DNA of 64,000 nucleotides from Opitutus terrae PB90-1 (lineage in GTDB: Bacteria > Verrucomicrobiota > Verrucomicrobiia > Opitutales > Opitutaceae): contig NC_010571.1 of assembly GCF_000019965.1 (NCBI RefSeq), positions 4,783,001 to 4,847,000 on the forward strand, read 5' to 3'. The notes under the pieces are model-generated. The model saw only the letters and a program-made list of their open reading frames with translations, did not search any database and was not told the DNA's origin. Shown in pieces: positions 21,567-63,021 of the stretch (position 1 is its first letter; each line of letters begins with the position of its first letter). Position numbers and translations under genes: made by a program.

Positions 21567-24392
<2,826 letters not shown>

Positions 24393-35894: not shown

Positions 35895-35978
35895 TGTCAT
35901 TCTGAGCGAAGCGAAGAATCCAGCACGGCAATCGCCATCGGTCACGCAACTGGATTCTTCGCTTCGCTCAGAATGACA
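35895..35978. repeat. 29-bp perfect inverted repeat between purF and purM
   Basis: Arms at 35895-35923 (starting TGTCATTCTGAGCGAAGCGA) and 35950-35978 are exact reverse complements, with a 26-bp spacer. The whole would form a very stable hairpin in the purF-purM leader. No target-site duplication is evident. Confidence 0.85.
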
Positions 35979-36015: not shown

Positions 36016-37923
36016 TCAATACGCCCGGCCCTCGTGCTTGTCGTAATAATTCACGTAGGCCTGGTTCACCACGCGATAGCCACCGGGCGTCGGATACCGG
36101 CCCGTGAAATACCAGTCGCCCGTCGCCGTCGGCACCGCCGCGTGCAGGTTTTCGATCGTCTGGAAGATGATCTCGATCTCACCCTTCCACTCGATCCCCT
36201 GCGGCCGCACCATCTCGGAGATCTCCGCGGAGATCTCCTCGGGCGTGAAGGGTTCGTAGATCCTCCGGACATGATTCGTCGTGCCGCGCCGGCCGACCTC
36301 CTCGCGACAGAGTGCGTAGACTTCCTCGAGCAGCCCGGTTTGCCCGCGCCGCCGCAGCAGCGCCACCGCCGCCTCGAACGCGATGAATTTGCCGATCTCC
36401 GACATGTCGATGCCGTAGCAGTCGGGATAGCGGATCTGCGGCGCCGTGGACACGATCACGATCTTGCGGGGTTGCAGCCGCGCGAGGATCCGCAGGATCG
36501 ACTTCCGCAGCGTCGTGCCGCGAACGATCGAATCGTCGATGCACACCAGATAATCGCCCGGCTGCACCGAACCGTAGGTGATATCGTAGACGTGACTCGC
36601 CAGCTGGTTTCGCAGGCCTTCCTGCCCGATGAACGTGCGCAGCTTGATGTCCTTGCTGACCACCTTCTCGCCCTTCGGCCAGTTGCGCATGATCAGCTCG
36701 TCGAGCAACGCATCCGTCAACGTGCCGTCCTTGCTCGCCTGCAGGATCGCCGCCTTGACCTCTCCGCGACGCCGCTGCCGCAGCGCGGACAGCATGCCGT
36801 AATAGGCCACCTCGGCGGTGTTCGGGATGAAACTGAACACGGTATGCGCCCAGTCGCTGTTCACCGCCTTCACCACCTGCTCGACGAGCTGCGCGCCCAG
36901 CGCCTTCCGCTCCTTGTAGATGTCGAAATCGTTGCCGCGCGAAAAATAAATCCGCTCGAACGTGCACGAGGTCCGCGGCAGCGGCGCGGTGAACGGATTC
37001 GAGCTCACCGTCCCCCGCTTTTTTACCACGACGACGTGGCCCGGTTGCACTTCCTTCACCTGTTCCAGCACGAGATCGAACACCGTCATCAACGGCGCTC
37101 GCTCGCTCGCGAACGCCACCACTTCGTCGTTCTGAAAATAGAAAAGCGGCCGGATGCCCGACGGGTCGCGCGCGACGAACGCATCACCGTTGCCGATCAA
37201 GCCCGCGATCGCGTAACCGCCATCCCACTTCTGCGAGGCGCGCGTGATCACGCGCGTGAGGTCGAGGTCCTCGCTGATCTTCCGCGATAATTCCTGACCG
37301 GAGAGCTCGCGCGTGCGCAGGAACCGGTAGATGTCCTCGTGCTCCTCATCGAGGAAGAACCCGATTTTTTCCAGCACGGCCTGCGTGTCCGAGGCGAAGA
37401 TGGGGTGCTGACCGATCGCGATGAGGCTGTCGTTCAGCTCCTTCGTGTTGGTCATGTTGAAATTCCCGCACAGCGCGAGATTGCGCGTCGGCCAGGAACT
37501 TCGCCGGAAATAGGGATGGCAGGCGCTCACGCCGTAGCCGCCCGAGGTGCCGTAGCGCAGGTGCCCGAGGTAGAGCTCCGCGCCGAAATCGAAGTGCTGC
37601 TTCACCGTGTCCGGGAACTCCGGGTGCACGGTGCCCGCCTTCACCAGGTCGCGATACCGTTCAAGCACGGAGCCGATCACGCGATCCAGCGGATTCGGCT
37701 GCGTGTTGCGCTCGCGAAACATGTAGGGTTCCCCCGCCGGCATGTCGAACTTCACGCACGCGACGCCCGCGCCATCCTGGCCGCGGTTGTGCTGCTTTTC
37801 CATCAACAGGAAGAGTTTTTCAAATCCCCACAGCGGGCTGCCGTATTTCTCCTGGAAGTAGGCCAGCGGCTTAAGCAACCGCACGAGCGCGATTCCGCAT
37901 TCGTGGCCGATCTGTTCGCTCAT
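36016..37923 (-). CDS. purF: Amidophosphoribosyltransferase PurF (long form)
   Basis: First committed enzyme of purine synthesis: glutamine plus PRPP to phosphoribosylamine. The N-terminal Ntn-hydrolase domain begins [13 protein letters not shown]; Cys9 is the expected nucleophile exposed after removal of a short propeptide. [20 protein letters not shown] and [13 protein letters not shown] follow. The PRPP site is [17 protein letters not shown]. At 635 aa it belongs to the long PurF type seen in Bacteroidetes and Verrucomicrobia rather than the 505-aa E. coli type, with an extra C-terminal domain (about residues 520-635). It is divergent from purL. Confidence 0.94.
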
Positions 37924-38245
37924 GTCAGGAAGGACACCGGTGGGTGACCGGTGTCGGAAAGCGGCCGTCCTGGGAGGACAGGACAGTCACAAGGATCGGC
38001 GAAGTCATAGGGCAGGAAAGCGGCTGATTTCGTCAGCCGTCCGGGTTTGGTCAACGGCTTTCTCCAACCCGCCGCCGCCGTGGTTGTTGTGGCACCGGCG
38101 TCTCGCCCGTGGACGACGCTCTGCGCCGCAACGCTTCATCCTCCCACCGCCCCGCTCCACAGGCGAGACGCCCGTCCCACCCACGACCTCCATCCCCTTC
38201 CTTGACCGCGCCCGCGATGTCCGGAAACATCCGTCTTTCGCCACC
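37924..38245. other. Divergent purF/purL intergenic region with palindromic repeats
   Basis: Gap of 322 bp that must carry both promoters. It contains CCGGTGGGTGACCGG near 37935 and a large imperfect inverted pair (GGCGTCTCGCCCGTGGA near 38096-38112 against TCCACAGGCGAGACGCC near 38155-38172), related to the GGGCGTCTCGCCC palindromes at 57650. No riboswitch or gene was recognised; in-frame codons upstream of purL look non-coding. Confidence 0.55.
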
Positions 38246-41200
38246 ATGTTGACGCTCCGCGGCTCGCCAGCCCTCTCCCAGTTCCGCCTCCAAAAACTGC
38301 TCGATGACCTGAAATCGGCCGGCGTGCCGGTCCGCGCTGTCAGCTCCGAGTATCTCCATCTGGTCGAATTGGTTCCCGGCGCCGCCGACCTGACCGATCC
38401 CGAGTGCCACGTACTCGAACGGCTGCTGACCTATGGTCCCAACCGCGCGACTTCCTCCGTTAGCGGTATGCTTCAGATCGTCGCGCCCCGCCCCGGCACG
38501 ATCTCGCCGTGGTCCTCCAAGGCCACGGACATCGCCCACATTTGCGGGCTTACGAAAATCAAGCGGATCGAGCGCGCCGTCGCCTACACCGTCGCGCTCG
38601 ACAACGCCGCACTGCAGCCACCGCTGCATGTCCTGCCCGCGGCGATCCTCGAAACGCTTCGCGCGCGGTTGCACGACCGTATGACGCAGTCCGTCTTCGC
38701 GGACCGCGATGCGCTGGCGGTGCTGTTCAGCCACGAGCAGCCGCGACCGATGACCACGGTGCCGATCCTCGCCCAGGGCCGTGCCGCTCTGGTCGCCGCC
38801 AACACCTCGCTTGGACTCGCGCTCGCCGACGACGAAATCGATTACCTCGTCAAGGCGTTCACCGGTCTCGGCCGCGACCCAAACGACATCGAGCTGATGA
38901 TGTTCGCGCAGGCGAACTCCGAGCACTGCCGGCACAAGATCTTCAACGCCACGTGGGACATCGACGGTGAAAAACGCGACCGCTCGCTGTTCCAGATGAT
39001 CAAGAACACCTACGAGCTGCACCGCGACGGCATCCTGTCCGCCTACAAGGACAATGCCGCGGTGATCGAGGGCTCGTTGGGGAAACGGTATTTCGTCGAC
39101 CCGACAACCAACGACTACGTCACTCGCGAGGAAGACATCCACATTCTCTGCAAGGTGGAGACGCACAACCACCCGACCGCGATCTCGCCGTTTCCGGGCG
39201 CCGCCACGGGCTCCGGCGGCGAGATTCGCGACGAAGGTGCCACCGGCCGCGGCGGCCGGCCCAAGGCCGGACTCACCGGCTTCACGGTTTCGAACCTGAA
39301 GCTGCCCGGCGCCGTGCAGCCGTGGGAAAAGGAGAACGGCAAACCCGAGCGGATTGTCTCCGCGTTGGACATCATGATCGACGGCCCGCTCGGCGGCGCC
39401 GCGTTCAACAACGAGTTCGGTCGACCGAACATCAACGGCTATTTCCGGACGTATGAACAAGAGGTGCCTGCGGCGAGCCCAGAGCCCAGTGTCCAGAGCC
39501 CAGAGCCAAGCCCCAGCTCGCATTTACCCAGTTCTCTCACCCTCGCCCGCAGCTCGGAAGAACTGACAGGTTCCGGCTCTCAACTCTCAGCTCTCAGCTC
39601 TCAACTCCGCGCCACGGAGTGGCGCGGCTACCACAAACCTATCATGCTGGCGGGGGGCCTCGGCAACATCCGTGCCGAGCACGTGCGCAAGGGCGAGATC
39701 AAGCCTGGCGACAAACTCGTCGTCCTCGGCGGACCGGCCATGCTCATCGGGCTCGGCGGTGGCGCGGCCAGCTCGATGGCCAGCGGTCACGGCAGCGAGG
39801 ACCTCGATTTCGCCAGCGTGCAGCGCGACAACGCCGAGATGGAGCGCCGTTGCCAGGAGGTCATCGATCGCTGCTGGGCGCTCGGCGCCGAAAACCCCAT
39901 CGCGTTCATCCACGACGTCGGCGCCGGCGGGCTGTCCAACGCGCTGCCCGAGCTCGTCAACGACGGCGGCCGCGGCGGGCGTTTCGATCTGCGCAAAATC
40001 CCGAACGACGAGCCCGGCATGACGCCGCTCGAGATCTGGTGCAATGAATCCCAGGAGCGCTACGTCCTCGCCGTTCCTGCCGGACGCATCGACACGTTCA
40101 AGCAGCTCTGCGAGCGCGAGCGTTGCCCGTTCGCGATCGTCGGCGAAGCCACCGAGGAAAAGCGGCTCGTCCTCGAGGATCCCCACTTCGCCAACAAGCC
40201 GATCGATCTCCCGCTCGAAATCCTGCTCGGCAAGCCGCCGCGGATGCACCGCACGGATCGTTCTCTTTCGCGTTCTCTTTCTCCGGTGAAGCTCGACGGG
40301 GTGTCGATGGCGGAGGCCGTCCGCCGCGTGCTCGCGCATCCGACGGTGGCCGACAAGACGTTCCTCATCTCCATTGGCGATCGTACCGTCGGCGGATTGA
40401 TCTGCCGCGACCAGATGGTCGGACCGTGGCAGGTGCCCGTCGCCGACTGCGGCGTGACCGCCGCCACCTATGACAGCTATGCCGGCGAGGCGCTCGCGAT
40501 GGGCGAACGCACCCCGGTCGCGGTGAACAACGCCGCCGCTTCCGCCCGACTTGCCGTCGCGGAAGCGCTGACGAATCTCGCGGCGGCCCAGGTCGGCGAA
40601 CTCGGTCGCGTGATTCTTTCCGCCAACTGGATGGCCGCGCCCGCGGTGCCTGGCGACGGCGCCGATCTCTACGCCGCCGTGCAGGCGGTCGGGCTCGAGC
40701 TTTGCCCTGCGCTCGGGATCACGATTCCCGTCGGCAAGGACTCGATGAGCATGAGCACCGTCTGGAAGGACGGTTCTGCGCAAAAGCGGATCACCGCGCC
40801 CGTGTCGTTGATCGTCTCCGCCTTTGCACCGGTCACCGACATCCGGCTCTCGCTCACCCCGCAGCTTCAGGTTCATGTAGCCGGGGTCGCTGACCCCGGC
40901 ACCGGCCTCAGCGAGGCCGGCTACAAGAGCTCTCAGCTCTCAGCGCTCAGCTCTCAGCTTCTTCTGATCGACCTTGGCCGCGGCAAGAACCGGCTCGGCG
41001 GCTCGATCCTCGCGCAAACGCTTTCGCAGACCGGCGCCGAGCCGCCCGATGTCGATAGTCCGGCCGACCTAAAAGCATTCTGGAACGCGATCCAGCAACT
41101 CGGCCGCGAACAAAAGCTCCTCGCCTACCACGACCGCAGCGACGGCGGGCTCCTCGCCACGATCGTCGAGATGGCCTTCGCCGGCCACACCGGTGTCGAT

Positions 41201-42562
41201 CTCGATCTTTCGGAATTGGCCCCAAAAGGTGCTGCCCCTGGGGACGCGACGCCCTCGTCGCGTCCCGCCTCGGGCGTAGCCGCGCCGGTTGGTGTAGCCG
41301 GGGTCGCTGACCCCGGCACCGGGCTCAACGAGCCCGGCTACAACCGCGCCTTCGCCGCCTTGTTCGCCGAAGAGCTCGGCGCCGTCATCCAGGTTCGCAC
41401 CACCGATCTTGACGCGGTCCTCGCCGTGTTGCGGACGCACGGGCTCGACGCCTGCACGCATCGGATCGGCACGCTCAACGCCGACCACGCCATCCGCATT
41501 AGTCAGAACAACGAGGTGCTGTTCGACGAAAACCTGTTCGCGTTGCGTGCCATTTGGTCCGACGTCACGCGCCGGATCGCGCAGCTCCGCGACAACCCCG
41601 CGTGCGCCGAACAGGAGTATCAGCTCAAGCTCGACCCGAAAAACCCCGGCATCCGGCCGGTGGTGAATTTTGCAGTCGGCCCGGTGACCGGGCGACCGGC
41701 CGGCAAGGAACAAGTATCAACTAGCAAGTCCCAAGGCTCGAGCCAGGTTCTTGCTACTTCCCACTTGCCACTTGTCACTTCGCGTAACCAGCCGGCGGTC
41801 GCCATCCTCCGCGAGCAGGGCGTCAATTCGCAGAACGAGATGGCCAACGCCTTCGCGCGCGCCGGATTCCGCGCCGTCGATGTCCACATGACGGACCTCC
41901 TCAGCGGACGCGTGTCCCTTCGCGATTTCCGCGGCCTCGCCGCGTGCGGCGGGTTCAGCTACGGCGACGTGCTCGGCGCCGGCGAGGGCTGGGCCAAGAG
42001 CGTGCTCTTCAATTCCCGCGCGCGTGCCGAATTCGCCGCATTCTTCGCCCGCGAGGACACGTTCGCCCTCGGCTCGTGCAACGGCTGCCAGATGATGAGC
42101 AACCTCCACGAGATCATCCCCGGCGCCGAACTGTGGCCGCACTTCGTGCAGAACAAGTCCGAACGCTACGAGGCGCGGTTCGCATCACTGAAGATCGAGA
42201 AAAGCCCGAGCATTCTCTTCGCCGGCATGGAGGGATCCGTGGTGCCAATCGCCGTCGCGCACGGCGAGGGTTACGCCGAGTTCACGGACGCCGCCGCCGC
42301 GCAGCGCTGCAGCGCCTCCGGCCTCGTCGCCGCGCGGTTCGTCGACAATCACCACCAGCCGACCGAGCTATATCCGCTCAACCCGAACGGCTCGCCGCTC
42401 GGCATGACCGCGTTCACCACCACCACCGGCCGGGTCACGATCCTGATGCCGCACCCCGAGCGCGTCTATCGCACCGTGCAGATGAGCTGGCACCCCGCCG
42501 ATTGGGGCGAGGACTCGCCCTGGATGCAGCTCTTCTACAACGCGCGCGCCTGGGTCGGCTGA
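38246..42562 (+). CDS. purL: Phosphoribosylformylglycinamidine synthase PurL (single-chain) with repeat-derived insertions
   Basis: Large single-chain FGAM synthetase, 1438 aa against about 1295 in E. coli. Key segments are intact: [46 protein letters not shown], the ATP site in [18 protein letters not shown], and a C-terminal glutamine amidotransferase domain ([16 protein letters not shown], nucleophile in [16 protein letters not shown]). Four low-complexity inserts (residues about 407-455, 876-905, 993-1033 and 1150-1180) together account for roughly 140 residues and are translated copies of dispersed repeats. They fall between conserved blocks. The start [10 protein letters not shown] matches the family N-terminus. 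It is divergent from purF. Confidence 0.95.
39465..39608. repeat. purL insertion 1: AGAGCCCAG and CTCTCAG tracts
   Basis: Between the RTYEQEV block and the [11 protein letters not shown] block the gene has repeated CAGAGCCCAG/TGTCCAGAGCC words (to about 39508) and, after a spacer, an AGCTCTC tract (39575-39608). It encodes a Ser/Pro-rich loop of about 48 residues where E. coli has about ten. Confidence 0.7.
40876..40959. repeat. purL insertion 2: GTAG-hairpin pair plus AGCTCTC tract
   Basis: A complete inverted GTAG pair (40877-40924) runs from GTAGCCGG to CCGGCTAC, followed by AGCTCTCAG repeats. It encodes [17 protein letters not shown] then a Ser/Gln/Leu tract, between LTPQLQ and LLIDLG. 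Confidence 0.85.
41241..41342. repeat. purL insertion 3: palindrome plus GTAG-hairpin pair
   Basis: An 11-bp-stem palindrome (GGGACGCGACG, loop CCCT, 41241-41266) is followed at 41293-41342 by a second copy of the inverted GTAG pair in the same orientation and reading frame as insertion 2, encoding [17 protein letters not shown]. Confidence 0.85.
41708..41780. repeat. purL insertion 4: AAGTGGC/CTTGCTA-type tract
   Basis: Words such as CAAGTATCAACTAGCAAGT and CTTGCTACTTCCCACTTGCC form a degenerate self-complementary tract with lower GC than the flanks. It encodes a Ser/Thr-rich linker just before the amidotransferase domain. Confidence 0.6.
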
Positions 42563-42614
42563 ACCCGCGGGTCGAGCGTCGACAGTCGTTCTTCATTTTG
42601 AGGTAACTGGCTTC

Positions 42615-42662
42615 GTAGCGGCGTCGCTCGCGACGCCCCAGGCGCACCGAGGTGCGCCCCTG
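42615..42662. repeat. GTAG-hairpin element pair after purL
   Basis: GTAGCGGCGTCGC with partner GCGACGCC, then hairpin GGCGCACC / GGTGCGCC. It ends CCCTGC where CCCTAC would be expected. The remainder of 42563-42818 shows no gene. Confidence 0.6.
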
Positions 42663-42818
42663 CGGGCCAGAAAGTCGTAGGACCGGCGGTCGCCTGCGGT
42701 AAGCCGGTCGAATCCGCCGCCGGCCGCTTCTTTGGTGGTGCATAACTTTTCGTTGCCCCGCCGCGAAAAGTCCGCTCGCTAGTGCGCAGCCCCGCCACCC
42801 CTGCCTTCCGAGCTGACG

Positions 42819-57798: not shown

Positions 57799-60387
57799 GT
57801 GTTCGACGTGCCCCCGACCTTAACCACAAGCCCTGATCGCCTTGCGTTTCGGCGGTGCTGCTGCCTGGCCGCCTGGGTCTGTGGCTGGTTGCTCGCGTTC
57901 GCTCACGCGCTCGGCGCCGAACCGCCGCGGCTGAGGTTTCACCTGCCCAGTGGCGACGCGGCCGACACCCTCGCCGAGTTCGGCCGGCAGTCGGGCGAGC
58001 AGGTGGTTTATCTCGTCGACAACGTTCGCGGACACCGCACCCGCGAGGTCGTGGGGCAGTTCACCGCCTGGGCCGCGCTCAACCAGATGCTCGCGGGCAC
58101 CCACCTGATCGTGCACCGCGATGGCGTGGATGGTCCGATCTCCGTCTCGCGACGCGCGGAAATTCCGCCCCCACTGCCGCGCGCCGCGTCGCCGCCGCGC
58201 GCCGTCAGCAGCCGAACGGATTTGTCCGACGTCGTCGTGCTCCCCGAGTTCACCGTCTCGAGCCAAACGGCCGATCGCTACCGCGCGGCCGACGCGATCT
58301 CCGCCGTGCGCGTCCGCGCCTCGTTGCTGGATGCGCCGAGCTCCATCTCCGTGCTCACCCGCGACGTGCTCGACGATCTGGCGCCAATCCGGATCTTCGA
58401 CGTCACCCGCTACGTGGCCGGCGTGCAGGAAGGCCGCGGCATCCAGTTTCAGGACCGGATGATCCTGCGCGGATTCGAGAGCAACGGTCAGCGGAGCGTG
58501 GACAATTTCCTGCAGCCCGCCGATGCCGACAACATCGACGAGGTCGTGATCGACCGGATCGAGATCACGAAAGGGCCGAACGCCATCCTGTCCCCTTCCG
58601 GCTCGCCCGGCGGCTCGATCAACGTCCTCACCAAATCGCCGCTCTATGACCGGCAGCGCAGCCTCACGGCCACCCTCGGCTTGTTCGATGCACAGAAGCT
58701 CAGCGTCGACGTCACCGACACGTTCGGCGCCGGCAGTCCGTTTGCTTACCGGATCATCGGCTCGCTGCAGGACTCGCGCCGCTATTGGTCGGCCGACGCG
58801 CGGCTGCGCGGCCGCGTGTTCGCGCCGATGTTCGCCTACCGGATTTCCGACCGCACCCAGCTCACCGTAAAACTGATCGGCGCCGAGCATTGGATCTTCC
58901 GCGAGCCGCTGCTGATCCTCGACCCGGCCGTCAGCGCCCAGACTCGGCAACCCTACCTCGCGCCTGGTCTTTCGACCCGAAGCCGCAATGGCATCCAGCC
59001 GTGGAGCCACGTCGGCACGCACACCGCGGATCTGTTCGCGCTCCTCACCTCGAACCTGACCGACATTCTCAGCCTCCGCGTCGCCGCCAACGGTCGCTAC
59101 TACTTCGAGGATTCGGTGCAGGAGTTCCTGGCCACGCCAAGCCTCACCGAGCGCTACAATCCCATGACCGGCGAGCTCACGCAGGACACCGTCTGGACGC
59201 TCGATCCGGCGACCAACACCTATGTGCCGACGCACTCGCCCTTCTTCGATCCCGCCTCCGTCCCGGTCCGCGGCGACAAGCAGGCCACGCGGCGCAAGAC
59301 GGTAAACTTGCAGACCGATCTGGTTGGCAAGTTCCAGCTCGGACCTGTCAGCTCGCAGACCGTGGCGGGACTCGCGCTCTCGCGCCAGACCAACTACGGT
59401 CGCGGCGTCTCCGGCGTGCTGCCGGGCGTCGACCTGAGCCAGCCACAGCGGCGAGTCGTGCCCGCGTGGTCGTCGGATTGGCTGTTCTACTACGTCACCT
59501 CGTTCACCAACTGGCAGGCCTACGTCAACCAGCGCGTTGGACTGCTGCAGGACCGGCTCCAGCTCACCGGCGGGCTGCTCCACTACGATACGAAAACGCG
59601 GTCGCTCAACCGCGTGAGCAGCGCTCCGCCCGGCGTCCTCGACGACGAGAAGGACATGTGGATGGCGAGTGCGCTGCTGAAGCTCCGGCCCAATCTCTCG
59701 CTCTACTACAGCCACTCGACCAACTCCACGCCGGTGATCGCCAACGACGTTCCGTTGTGGCGCGACGGCGTGCAGGACGAGGTGGGGTTCAAGAGCGAGT
59801 TCTTCAACCAGCGGCTGTCGTTCACCGCGGCCTACTTCGAGATCGCGCAGACCAACGTCACCGTGCCGAATCCCGATCGGCAGACCAACCCCGCGGCGCC
59901 CGAGCAACTCGTGTCGGACTTGGGCAATCACGGCTACGAATTCGAGATCGTCGGCGGACTCACGCCCAACCTGTCGGCCATCGCGAGCTTCTCCCAGCTG
60001 AAGATGCGTGATGCGCTCGGCCGCCACGTGCGGGCCGTCGCCGATCACAACGCCGCGCTGCTGCTGAACTACCGGTTCCGCGCCGGCCGGCTCGACGGGC
60101 TCTCGCTGAACGTCGGCGTCAGCTACAACGGTCGCCGCGCCGGCGACTCGCCGATCAACTACACTCCGCTCAACGTGGTCGGCCAAACCAGCTTCTTCGT
60201 GCCGTCTTACTACGTGACGAGCTTTGGCGCCTCCTATCGCTGGCGCGATTTCCTGTTCCGGCTCAACGTCGACAATTTTTTCGACGACCAAGGTTATCTG
60301 CAGCAAGCCGGCGGCCGGGTGTCCGGCACCGGCATCACCACCGCGCCCGGCATCAACGTGAAGGCTTCCACGACGTGGAATTTCTAG
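57799..60387 (+). CDS. TonB-dependent receptor with N-terminal STN signalling domain
   Basis: Outer-membrane transducer of about 862 aa. A signal peptide (CCCLAAWVCGWLLAFAHALGA) is followed by an STN domain (about residues 45-120, LRFHLPSGDAADTLAEFGRQSG and NQMLAGTHLIVH), the domain that talks to FecR. Then come a plug (TRYVAGVQEGRGIQFQDR, ITKGPNAILSPSGSPGGSINV) and a 22-strand-type barrel ending in aromatic TWNF. It follows the FecI/FecR genes and completes a cell-surface signalling set. The ligand (siderophore or glycan) is unknown. The start is uncertain: an ATG at 57697 sits in a repeat, so a GTG at 57799 was preferred. Confidence 0.85.
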   Translation: MFDVPPTLTTSPDRLAFRRCCCLAAWVCGWLLAFAHALGAEPPRLRFHLPSGDAADTLAEFGRQSGEQVVYLVDNVRGHRTREVVGQFTAWAALNQMLAGTHLIVHRDGVDGPISVSRRAEIPPPLPRAASPPRAVSSRTDLSDVVVLPEFTVSSQTADRYRAADAISAVRVRASLLDAPSSISVLTRDVLDDLAPIRIFDVTRYVAGVQEGRGIQFQDRMILRGFESNGQRSVDNFLQPADADNIDEVVIDRIEITKGPNAILSPSGSPGGSINVLTKSPLYDRQRSLTATLGLFDAQKLSVDVTDTFGAGSPFAYRIIGSLQDSRRYWSADARLRGRVFAPMFAYRISDRTQLTVKLIGAEHWIFREPLLILDPAVSAQTRQPYLAPGLSTRSRNGIQPWSHVGTHTADLFALLTSNLTDILSLRVAANGRYYFEDSVQEFLATPSLTERYNPMTGELTQDTVWTLDPATNTYVPTHSPFFDPASVPVRGDKQATRRKTVNLQTDLVGKFQLGPVSSQTVAGLALSRQTNYGRGVSGVLPGVDLSQPQRRVVPAWSSDWLFYYVTSFTNWQAYVNQRVGLLQDRLQLTGGLLHYDTKTRSLNRVSSAPPGVLDDEKDMWMASALLKLRPNLSLYYSHSTNSTPVIANDVPLWRDGVQDEVGFKSEFFNQRLSFTAAYFEIAQTNVTVPNPDRQTNPAAPEQLVSDLGNHGYEFEIVGGLTPNLSAIASFSQLKMRDALGRHVRAVADHNAALLLNYRFRAGRLDGLSLNVGVSYNGRRAGDSPINYTPLNVVGQTSFFVPSYYVTSFGASYRWRDFLFRLNVDNFFDDQGYLQQAGGRVSGTGITTAPGINVKASTTWNF

Positions 60388-60422
60388 CGTCGCTCCGCGC
60401 CCTTCCGCCGGCCGCCGCTTGC

Positions 60423-60640
60423 GTAGGAGCGCGGCCGCCCTCGGCCGCTCCGTTTCGGATGTAGCCGGGCTCGCCGAGCCCGGCTCACGCGCCGCAATCC
60501 GCTACCCCAGCTACTTCACGCCGCCTGCGTGGGAGCGCGGGCGTCGGGGCCGCATCGTTGCCGTCGCCTCGCTCAGTAGACGCGCCCGACACGGGCCGGA
60601 CTTAACAGCGGGCAAGATCCCCGCGCTCCCAAGGCGCATC
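60423..60640. repeat. Cluster of palindromic repeats between the two TonB receptor genes
   Basis: GTAGGAGCGGCCGC-type hairpin (60423-60452), GTAGCCGG with hairpin GGGCTCG / CGAGCCC (60461-60484) and a pair starting GGGAGCGCGGGCG and ending CCGCGCTCCCA (60531-60640). Nothing else was identified in this 330-bp gap; any promoter for the second receptor is not recognisable. Confidence 0.65.
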
Positions 60641-60717
60641 CGCTATCCCCCATTTCGCGGCGCGCAACGTCGTTTAGGGAAGCCGGCATTCCGCCGGCCC
60701 CAAACCTGACGCACATC

Positions 60718-63021
60718 ATGCTGATGAAACCCCAAGCATTCGACGTGGCGCGCTGGCGCCACTTCGTTCTCTCCGGCCTCTGCGCCGCAATTGTTACCGT
60801 TCCGGTCCTTGCCCAAACCGCCACCCCCTCCTCGGACTCCGCCGCACCACGGGCGGATGACGAGGTGATTACGCTGCCGCAGTTCACCGTGTCCGGCGAA
60901 GCCGCCGACCGGTATCGCGCAGCCGACGCCGTGTCCGCCGTCCGCGTCCGCGCCCCGCTGCTCGAGACCCCGAGCACGATCACGGTCCTCACCCGCGACA
61001 TGATCGATGATCTGGCACCGTCCCGCCTCTTCGATGTCACCCGCTACGCCGCGGGCGTGCAGGAAGGTCGCGGCATTCAGTTCCAGGATCGCATGATCCT
61101 CCGCGGTTTTGAGAGCAACGGCCAGCGCGTCGTCGACAACTTCCTGCAACCGGACGATGCCGACAACATCACCGAGGTGGTGATCGATCGCCTCGAAATC
61201 TCGAAGGGCCCGAACGCCATCCTTTCGCCCGCCGGCGGTCCCGGTGGCGCGGTGAACGTGATCACGAAATCGCCGCTCTATCGCCGCCAGCGCAGCGTGA
61301 CCGGAGTCATCGGCTTGTTCGACGCGCAGAAGCTCACGCTCGACATGACCGACGCCTTCTCCCCCGGCAGCAAGGCCGCCTACCGGTTCATCGGTTCGAT
61401 CCAGGACACCCGGCGTTACTGGTCCGACGATGCACGCATGCGCAACAAGGCCCTCGCGCCGATGTTCACCTACAAGATCTCCGACCGCACGCAGCTGACG
61501 GTGAAGCTCATCGGCTCGACCCAGTGGATCTTCCGCGAGCCGCTGCTGATCATCGATCCGCGCGTCGGCCCGCAGACCGACGATCCGTACCTGGCGCCCG
61601 GTCTCTCCAAGAAGGGCCGCAACGGCATCCAGCCGTGGAGTCACACCGCCGTCGACACCGCCGACCTGTTCGCACTGCTCACCACGAGTTTTAACGAGAA
61701 CATCAGTCTGCGCGTCGCCGCCAACGGCCGCTATTACTTCACCGATTCCGTGCAGGAGTTCATCACGCTGCCCGGCTTGAACAACACGCGCTACCAGCCG
61801 CTCACCGGCGAGTTCACCCAGGACTACGTCTGGTCGATGGTCAACGGCCAGCCGGTCTCGACCTTCTCGCCGCTGTTCCAGCCGGGGAACATCCCCGTCC
61901 GCGGTGATGCGCAATGGACGCGGCTGCGTTACGCCAATCTGCAGTCGGACCTCGCCGCGCGCTACAATTTCCCAGGGGTGACCACGCAGACGGTCGGCGG
62001 CGTCGCCGTCTCGCGCCGGCTCAGCGTCAACAAGGTCAAGAGCGGCACCCTGCCCGGCATCGATCTCAGCCGTCCCTACGTGGCCGCGACTCCGATCTGG
62101 GACTCGAATCTTTACGCGAACAACGTCGGCAACTTCACCAACTGGCAGGCCTACGTGAACGAGCGGCTCGGGTTCCTCGATGACCGCGTCCAGGCGACCG
62201 GCGGCATCCTGCACTACGACACTTACACCTACGCGCGCAACGCCATCAACGCCACCAACGCCCCCAGCATCCTCGACGATGCGAAGAACGTCTGGATGGC
62301 CAGCTTGCTGGTGAAGGTGCAACCCAACGCGTCGGTCTACTACAGCCACTCGACCAATTCCTCGCCCGTCATCGCCAACAACCAGCCGCTGTGGCGCGAC
62401 GGCGTGCAGGACGAGGTCGGCTTCAAGACCGAGTGGTTCAACCAGCGGCTCGCGTTCAACGCCGCCTATTTCGAGATCTCGCAGACCAACGTCACGACGC
62501 CCAATCCCGAACGGCAGACGAACCCAAGCGCGCCGGAGCAGATCGTGCAGGATCTGAACAATCACGGCTACGAGTTCGAACTCACCGGCGGCATCACCAA
62601 CAACCTGTCGGTGCTCGCCGCCTATTCGCAGCTGAAGATGCGCGACTCGCTCGGCCGCCACGTGCGCGCCGTCGCGGATCGCAATGCCTCGATCTTGTTG
62701 AACTACCGGTTTACCGAGGGCGCGCCAAAGGGCCTGTCGCTGAGCCTCGGCGTCAGCTACAGCGGCCGTCGCGCCGGCGACGCTCCGCCCGCCTACACGA
62801 TCGCGAGCGTCCCCGCCAAAACGAGCTTCTTCCTGAAGCCGTATTACGTGACGAACTTCAGCGCGTCCTACACCTGGCACGATTACGTCTTCCGACTCTA
62901 CGTCGACAACGTGCTCGATGATAGCGGCTACATCCAGCAGGCCGGCGGGCGCGTGTCCGGCACCGGTATCACCACCGCTCCCGGGATGAACGTGAAGTTC
63001 TCCACGACCTGGAACTTTTAG
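60718..63021 (+). CDS. TonB-dependent receptor, paralogue without STN domain
   Basis: Outer-membrane receptor of 767 aa, strongly similar along its whole plug and barrel to the receptor encoded just upstream (shared blocks include DRYRAADAVSAVRVRAPLLE, TRYAAGVQEGRGIQFQDR and LYYSHSTNS-like segments). Signal peptide about residues 15-33, then a TonB-box-like VITLPQFTVSGEAADRY, the plug, and a barrel ending TTWNF. It lacks the STN domain, so it can transport but should not signal through FecR. The arrangement indicates tandem duplication. ATG at 60718 or 60724 are both possible starts. Confidence 0.92.
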   Translation: MLMKPQAFDVARWRHFVLSGLCAAIVTVPVLAQTATPSSDSAAPRADDEVITLPQFTVSGEAADRYRAADAVSAVRVRAPLLETPSTITVLTRDMIDDLAPSRLFDVTRYAAGVQEGRGIQFQDRMILRGFESNGQRVVDNFLQPDDADNITEVVIDRLEISKGPNAILSPAGGPGGAVNVITKSPLYRRQRSVTGVIGLFDAQKLTLDMTDAFSPGSKAAYRFIGSIQDTRRYWSDDARMRNKALAPMFTYKISDRTQLTVKLIGSTQWIFREPLLIIDPRVGPQTDDPYLAPGLSKKGRNGIQPWSHTAVDTADLFALLTTSFNENISLRVAANGRYYFTDSVQEFITLPGLNNTRYQPLTGEFTQDYVWSMVNGQPVSTFSPLFQPGNIPVRGDAQWTRLRYANLQSDLAARYNFPGVTTQTVGGVAVSRRLSVNKVKSGTLPGIDLSRPYVAATPIWDSNLYANNVGNFTNWQAYVNERLGFLDDRVQATGGILHYDTYTYARNAINATNAPSILDDAKNVWMASLLVKVQPNASVYYSHSTNSSPVIANNQPLWRDGVQDEVGFKTEWFNQRLAFNAAYFEISQTNVTTPNPERQTNPSAPEQIVQDLNNHGYEFELTGGITNNLSVLAAYSQLKMRDSLGRHVRAVADRNASILLNYRFTEGAPKGLSLSLGVSYSGRRAGDAPPAYTIASVPAKTSFFLKPYYVTNFSASYTWHDYVFRLYVDNVLDDSGYIQQAGGRVSGTGITTAPGMNVKFSTTWNF

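Follow-up and report, generated by a model that had tools for sequence, protein, structure and literature searches.

We found that purL, encoding the single-chain phosphoribosylformylglycinamidine synthase in a 64,000-nucleotide (nt) stretch of the Opitutus terrae PB90-1 genome (NC_010571.1, positions 4,783,001 to 4,847,000; hereafter the window, to which all coordinates below refer unless a locus is named), carries four extra stretches that are in-frame copies of dispersed repeat DNA lying between the conserved blocks of the enzyme. We posit, with a probability of about 0.78, that these are dispersed hairpin elements that insert widely, of which the in-frame copies in tolerant linkers survive. 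The elements are repetitive extragenic palindromes (REPs) tagged with GTAG and arranged as inverted dimers, a further palindrome and arrays of 7-nt units (heptads), and relatives of O. terrae fill the same PurL sites with other elements, a feature that escaped the original prediction of the inserts made from the letters of the DNA.

The gene lies at 38246..42562 (+ strand, like all inserts and the metH features below), most likely starts at the ATG at 38246 and encodes a protein of 1438 amino acids (aa), recognized from its reading frame and by the NCBIfam model NF003672 (2070 bits, residues 1-1438). A search of its own genome, a single contig of 5,957,605 bases, returned one full-length purL match, and a second copy was rejected as the five other matches all fall at query residues 989-1046, which constitute the REP-bearing insert. 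When compared by phmmer with the Salmonella PurL (1T3T), the protein aligns in four separate stretches (query 3-409, 457-876, 897-991 and 1036-1438), and a family alignment places the fourth insert near residue 1149; in that alignment the inserts follow residues 412, 878, 989 and 1149 and add 43, 20, 41 and 24 residues beyond the core columns. The four in-frame inserts are thus at about the predicted places, between conserved blocks of the 1T3T alignment and with the frame open across all of them. The predicted sizes (about 143 excess and about 140 insert residues) come down somewhat: the inserts account for 128 residues beyond the core and the whole protein exceeds the 1300 core columns by 138, the figure of 143 depending on the 1295-residue length of E. 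coli PurL. As the frame is open and purL is present in a single copy, we infer that the inserts are translated and retained in a stable protein.

At the DNA level, insert 1 (39474..39612; extra residues about 413-455) was called as an inverted pair and forms a heptad hairpin, with a left arm of GAGnnnA repeats (39474-39515), a right arm of CTCTCAR repeats (39571-39612) and a gap of 55 nt; it is missing in the relatives G001 and G006 (G numbers denote family genomes and L numbers other loci or DNA stretches). Insert 2 combines a 48-bp GTAG REP dimer, translated in frame (40877..40924), with an AGCTCTC heptad array called immediately 3′ of it (40924..40962). Insert 3 joins a GCGACGCCCTCGTCGC palindrome (41236..41264; from self-match and folding), the GCGACG element earlier described as TGGAGC-type, to a second 48-bp GTAG REP dimer, likewise translated in frame (41294..41341); the 29-nt sequence of the palindrome has a perfect inverted match at 23440-23468 within metH. 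Insert 4 (41705..41784) is a hairpin of CAAGTnn and nnACTTG heptads; array calling picked up only its right arm (41746-41784), and the left one was read from the sequence and its fold. A very similar element occupies the corresponding site in G070. The two GTAG inverted pairs, the palindrome and the heptad tracts that had been predicted are all located in the inserts, and the two heptad inserts prove to be inverted-arm hairpins, which had gone unseen. Both GTAG dimers are exactly 48 bp long and leave one of three frames open per strand; both copies are in that frame, with GTA as a codon. The REP-bearing inserts fold as RNA four to six standard deviations better than shuffles (z = -4.39 for insert 2, 40870-40965, and -5.70 for insert 3, 41225-41346) and the heptad inserts about two (z = -2.17 for insert 1, 39468-39613, and -2.18 for insert 4, 41705-41788). 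Rfam gave no match over 38000-42700 at E<=1.

Most of these elements recur across the genome. The loose pattern GTAGCCGG..CCGGC has 159 genome-wide matches, overlapping ones included, and its reversed control has 35; TAGG opens 9-bp stems in 59 cases where 1.9 are expected, in keeping with an unpaired GTAG tag beside a palindromic stem, as the sequence of both dimers also shows. Three tandem copies of CTCTCAR are matched 30 times against 5 in the control. Further counts come from an 864-kb background sample, comprising 40 stretches of 20 kb and the window, in which gene calling gave 654 genes and 84% coverage; strict GTAG patterns were used for them, because a loose GT[AG]G stem scan gave 137 matches versus 92 for a control tag. 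The sample holds 24 strict GTAG matches, 17 intergenic and 7 in genes, as well as 12 GTAG dimers of 46-49 bp, seven of which measure 48 bp and the others 46, 47 or 49. It also holds 33 period-7 arrays versus 5 in one order-3 Markov shuffle, and 11 of the 33 lie within genes. Both classes are depleted in genes relative to the coding fraction (7 GTAG matches against 20.2 expected and 11 period-7 arrays against 27.8), and 14 of the 654 genes hold any element, with purL holding the most and some holding just a short palindrome, possibly by chance. Neighboring arrays of the same period (6-8, within 300 nt) are inverted in nine of ten pairs, and many arrays are without a detected partner. Selection for stop-free heptads in genes was considered and is unsupported, with all three sense frames open in 9 of the 11 in-gene arrays and also in 22 of 32 intergenic strands. 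One of four loci examined for a gene of the Y1_Tnp transposase family (L115) is flanked by PurL-type GTAG REPs, with GTAGCCGGGCTCGTTGAGCCCGGG / GTAGCCGGGGTCGCTGACCCCGGC on one side of the gene and GTAGCCGGGGTCGCTGACCCCGGC on the other, the latter being identical to the first PurL REP unit.

We then compared PurL across the family, taken to be Opitutaceae. Among 80 genomes searched, 78 had a match; 15 were left out since purL was absent, weak or fragmentary among the matches listed, and of the 64 relatives' genes taken, the truncated one of G027 was dropped, giving 63 relatives and, with the window, 64 family PurLs (64 species sequences from 41 genera). These retain the partial genes of G010 (5′ end) and G057 (3′ end) and exclude L032 and L033, apparent duplicates of G008 and G022. 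The alignment was completed by ten further PurLs, namely eight gammaproteobacterial sequences, one filed as Fibrobacter and that of Ca. Didemnitutus mandela (L031), which is likely a family member and served solely as an outgroup row. Inserts of at least 12 aa, counted over the whole chain beyond core position 200, number 104 and occur in 48 of the 64 family PurLs, versus 1 of 76 PurLs from outside the family (counted over residues 232-1431 on a separately built core, with L106 omitted as a family member), so that the proposed check of distant orthologs finds them nearly free of inserts. The main sites of insertion are core positions 402, 633, 825, 916 and 1035, with 792 used in two sequences; sites 402, 633, 825 and 1035 (window residues 412, 686, 878 and 1149) are all outside the called Pfam domains, which in the window PurL are FGAR-AT_linker (to 231), AIRS_C (486-644), PurM_N-like (703-862) and GATase_5 (from 1182). 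Residues 232-485 have no Pfam domain among the matches listed, which include a second AIRS_C match without a position.

The DNA filling these sites is diverse. GTAG REP dimers like the two of the window occur in G073 (twice) and G030, and G024 has a GTAG-type stretch. Inverted repeats fill sites in G016 and G079 (GTGGCACGGGCG-type) and in G037 and G039 (GTAGGGGCG-type), and many further inserts are inverted arrays of 7-nt or 9-nt units (nonads such as ACAGAGnnn and GCAGAGnnn). The 9-nt array pattern is found in 14 of the 80 family genomes, with no reversed-control matches and none in the window's own genome. Among 84 inserts of at least 15 aa at the six sites (with 8 flanking residues per side and 60 shuffles), 50 fold at z<=-2, versus 10 of 84 core segments drawn from nt 480-1150 of the same genes (40 shuffles). 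The sites turn over between close relatives: G010 and G055 (95% core identity) differ by a 41-aa insert at 825, and G040 and G073 (93%) have site 402 empty in one and filled with a REP in the other, different elements at 825 and the same one at 1035. Fitch counts over the six sites on a single FastTree tree, with losses included, give 13, 6, 2, 11, 8 and 13 changes. FILMVWYC residues make up 14.8% of the inserts and 31.7% of the core. An AlphaFold2 (AF2) model of residues 232-1431 (predicted template-modeling score 0.81; template-modeling score 0.84 to 1T3T) places the four inserts largely in segments with a predicted local distance difference test score (pLDDT) below 50, mostly coil, with part of insert 2 helical; for insert 1 the low scores cover fragment residues 184-223. 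As an aside, the purL at G005:C1:7246634 onward is part of an open frame that, at 2017 codons, is the longest among the family matches listed.

Based on these observations, we propose that the GTAG REP dimers are non-autonomous and were most likely spread by a RAYT-type (REP-associated tyrosine) Y1 transposase of the O. terrae genome, for which the one encoded at L115 is a candidate, while the inverted heptad and nonad arrays would constitute a second class of hairpins. Both would land broadly, with most in-gene copies then lost; the retained copies would be nearly neutral ones that keep the frame and sit where PurL is flexible and tolerates a linker of low hydrophobicity, in most cases between domains. 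The same few permissive sites would be refilled and emptied over time by whichever element is active in each lineage.

Several observations weigh against this proposal. Site 792 (window residue 845) is inside the PurM_N-like domain (703-862) and site 916 probably falls within the second copy of AIRS_C, so that not all inserts occupy linkers. The other 34 of the 84 inserts fall short of z<=-2 and several site-633 inserts are similar, ordinary-looking linkers common to relatives, because of which not every insert need derive from a repeat. purL itself supplies four of the seven in-gene strict GTAG matches and four of the eleven in-gene heptad arrays, and one of the seven (L231) is out of the expected codon phase. 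Inserts are shared in the close pairs G003/G051 (97.5% core identity) at 402 and G026/G066 (91%) at 402 and 633, and the recurrence of relatives' inserts in their own genomes was gauged by the one 9-nt pattern count. No clean target-site duplication is readable from the empty-site pairs. The AF2 alignment is shallow (38 rows) and conserved loops likewise have low pLDDT, so the model speaks for recovery of the core fold with the inserts present and for nothing more. Finally, the predicted recurrence of the insert repeats in the genome holds for the REP, the palindrome and CTCTCAR but is not established for the exact heptad of insert 4, as three copies of CACTTGY give 3 genome matches at <=1 mismatch, one being purL, versus 2 for the control.

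The near-uniqueness of this array also fits an alternative that concerns the heptad arrays alone and is compatible with the proposal above, namely that slippage and template switching during replication built them up in place within flexible linkers, leaving just the REPs and palindromes as mobile. The arrays differ from one another in their unit and in the number of copies, and a study of 7-nt repeats mentions a proposal that these favor polymerase slippage (PMC4679880); against in-place growth, the unit families CTCTCAR, GTTGAG and ACAGAG recur at many loci, several as inverted pairs, and we regard it as possible but the less probable origin of these arrays. A broader conjecture, which we consider rather unlikely in its entirety, is that inverted short-period (6-10 nt) array hairpins are an undescribed dispersing class that, along with REPs, repeatedly colonizes interdomain linkers of essential enzymes throughout the family, and that mRNA hairpins at domain boundaries affect co-translational folding. 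Alternatively, the inserts might be functional, with hairpins at domain boundaries slowing the ribosome or longer linkers aiding the folding of a large multidomain enzyme, such that selection keeps some hairpin while its sequence is exchangeable; several sites in PurL and in the methionine synthase MetH do lie between annotated domains, and both the 48 insert-bearing family members and the 50 strongly folding inserts are in line with this, but 16 of the 64 family PurLs and 75 of the 76 others do without any insert of at least 12 aa, related species differ freely in theirs and the elements are depleted in genes overall, which makes a function unlikely. It is very improbable that RNA processing, ribosome bypassing or proteolysis takes the inserts out before the enzyme functions. 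Although the strong RNA hairpins of the inserts could in principle be bypassed, the frame is open through all four, which removal would not need, and Rickettsia conorii proteins with the N-terminal palindromic element RPE-1 are said in PMC3733652 to be expressed in vivo.

We hence favor dispersed hairpin elements whose in-frame copies persist in tolerant linkers, which extends intragenic REPs from a one-species gene list to family-wide turnover at shared sites, points to a second class of repeats turning into coding sequence, namely the heptad and nonad arrays with inverted arms, and offers a natural insertion-tolerance experiment on an essential purine enzyme, showing where PurL accepts roughly 12-50 new residues. 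With regard to known repeats, the cyanobacterial short tandemly repeated repetitive (STRR) heptamers are degenerate 7-nt direct tandem arrays, and by this description the arrays of O. terrae resemble them in being degenerate 7-nt tandem arrays. As for its GTAG part, the finding adds one more case to what has been published rather than being new, because the sections covered of Di Nocera 2013 (PMC3733652) already report intragenic GTAG REP copies in O. terrae, in both uvrA genes, DNA ligase and RNA helicases, and compare them with Rickettsia palindromic elements (RPEs); the earlier statement that no such description was known for Verrucomicrobia is therefore not borne out. The main text of that paper does not name purL (0 matches), its gene list being Additional file 3, which may include it. 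The PurL elements agree with the GTAG REP/BIME (bacterial interspersed mosaic element) systems with RAYTs, as presented in those sections, in the GTAG tag by a palindromic stem, the inverted dimers of 46-49 bp, the many dispersed copies and the single transposase gene with such REPs on its flanks; the heptad arrays and the family-wide reuse of PurL sites go beyond what they contain. The suggested likeness to RPEs is sound as an analogy, both being palindromic repeats in frame within protein genes, but does not extend to membership: RPE-4 and RPE-6 are assigned in those sections to the CGTC super-family, whereas the PurL dimers begin with GTAG and end with CTAC and so lack the CGTC tag, and here the phylum is a different one and the REP of the inserts also adjoins a transposase gene.

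The nearest counterpart of the heptad arrays among the literature matches listed are the TAACTGA repeats of marine Beggiatoaceae (PMC4679880, in the parts covered), which are likewise dispersed 7-nt repeats, some within open reading frames (ORFs), and which the authors propose are tolerated between modules or at the termini of proteins. Those repeats are direct, apart from one inverted case, and most lie in intergenic DNA 5′ of start codons, unlike O. terrae, which has several inverted-arm arrays in linkers of conserved enzymes. The same matches contain no description of heptad or nonad hairpins in genes or of family-wide reuse of PurL sites, and a search for six array strings gave no bacterial paper by title. 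Beyond PMC3733652, the titles listed for Opitutus palindromes, for heptanucleotide or STRR repeats and for REPs inside genes include none that points to intragenic REPs in Verrucomicrobia.

A second decorated gene, also missed by the original prediction, is the nearby metH-type ORF (21585..24389, bounds by gene calling), identified as a methionine synthase by TIGR02082 and its Pfam domains and matching the profile from about position 341. A degenerate heptad array (22472..22502, residue ~295) lies in the linker between Pterin_bind (ends 248) and B12-binding_2 (starts 314), and two GCGACG-type palindromes with an AGCTCTC heptad array (23405..23527, residues ~606-646) directly precede Met_synt_B12 (starts 646). 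In many of 61 family genomes, the alignment breaks near 600/644 and the two matches almost abut in the relative, which is what an extra segment in the window gene would produce; nine other genomes align through this point in one match (both among the matches listed).

Further repeats were seen in the 864-kb sample and the window. Period-6 CTCGTT arrays face GAGAAC arrays as inverted pairs in L217, L223, L244 and L247, with spacers of about 15-60 nt, and also belong to the inverted arrays of short period; in L221 the arms are separated by 3.4 kb. The longest array by far among those listed is (AGATGAG)n with ~33 copies (L227:18465-18705), and a gene resembling Snf2-type helicases (below NCBIfam cut-offs) at L242:13607-16156 contains a REP dimer of GTGG type along with two heptad arrays. 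In the window, two diverged tandem copies about 2634 bp apart and 70-80% identical in blocks span 58239-63021, with GTAG-type palindromes nearby at 60460 and 63143. Just past the 3′ end of the ORF at 36016-37923, which is purF-like as judged from its translation, lies a 29-nt perfect inverted repeat, TGTCATTCTGAGCGAAGCGAAGAATCCAG, with a 26-nt loop (35895-35978), a sequence presumably also present in unrelated bacteria.

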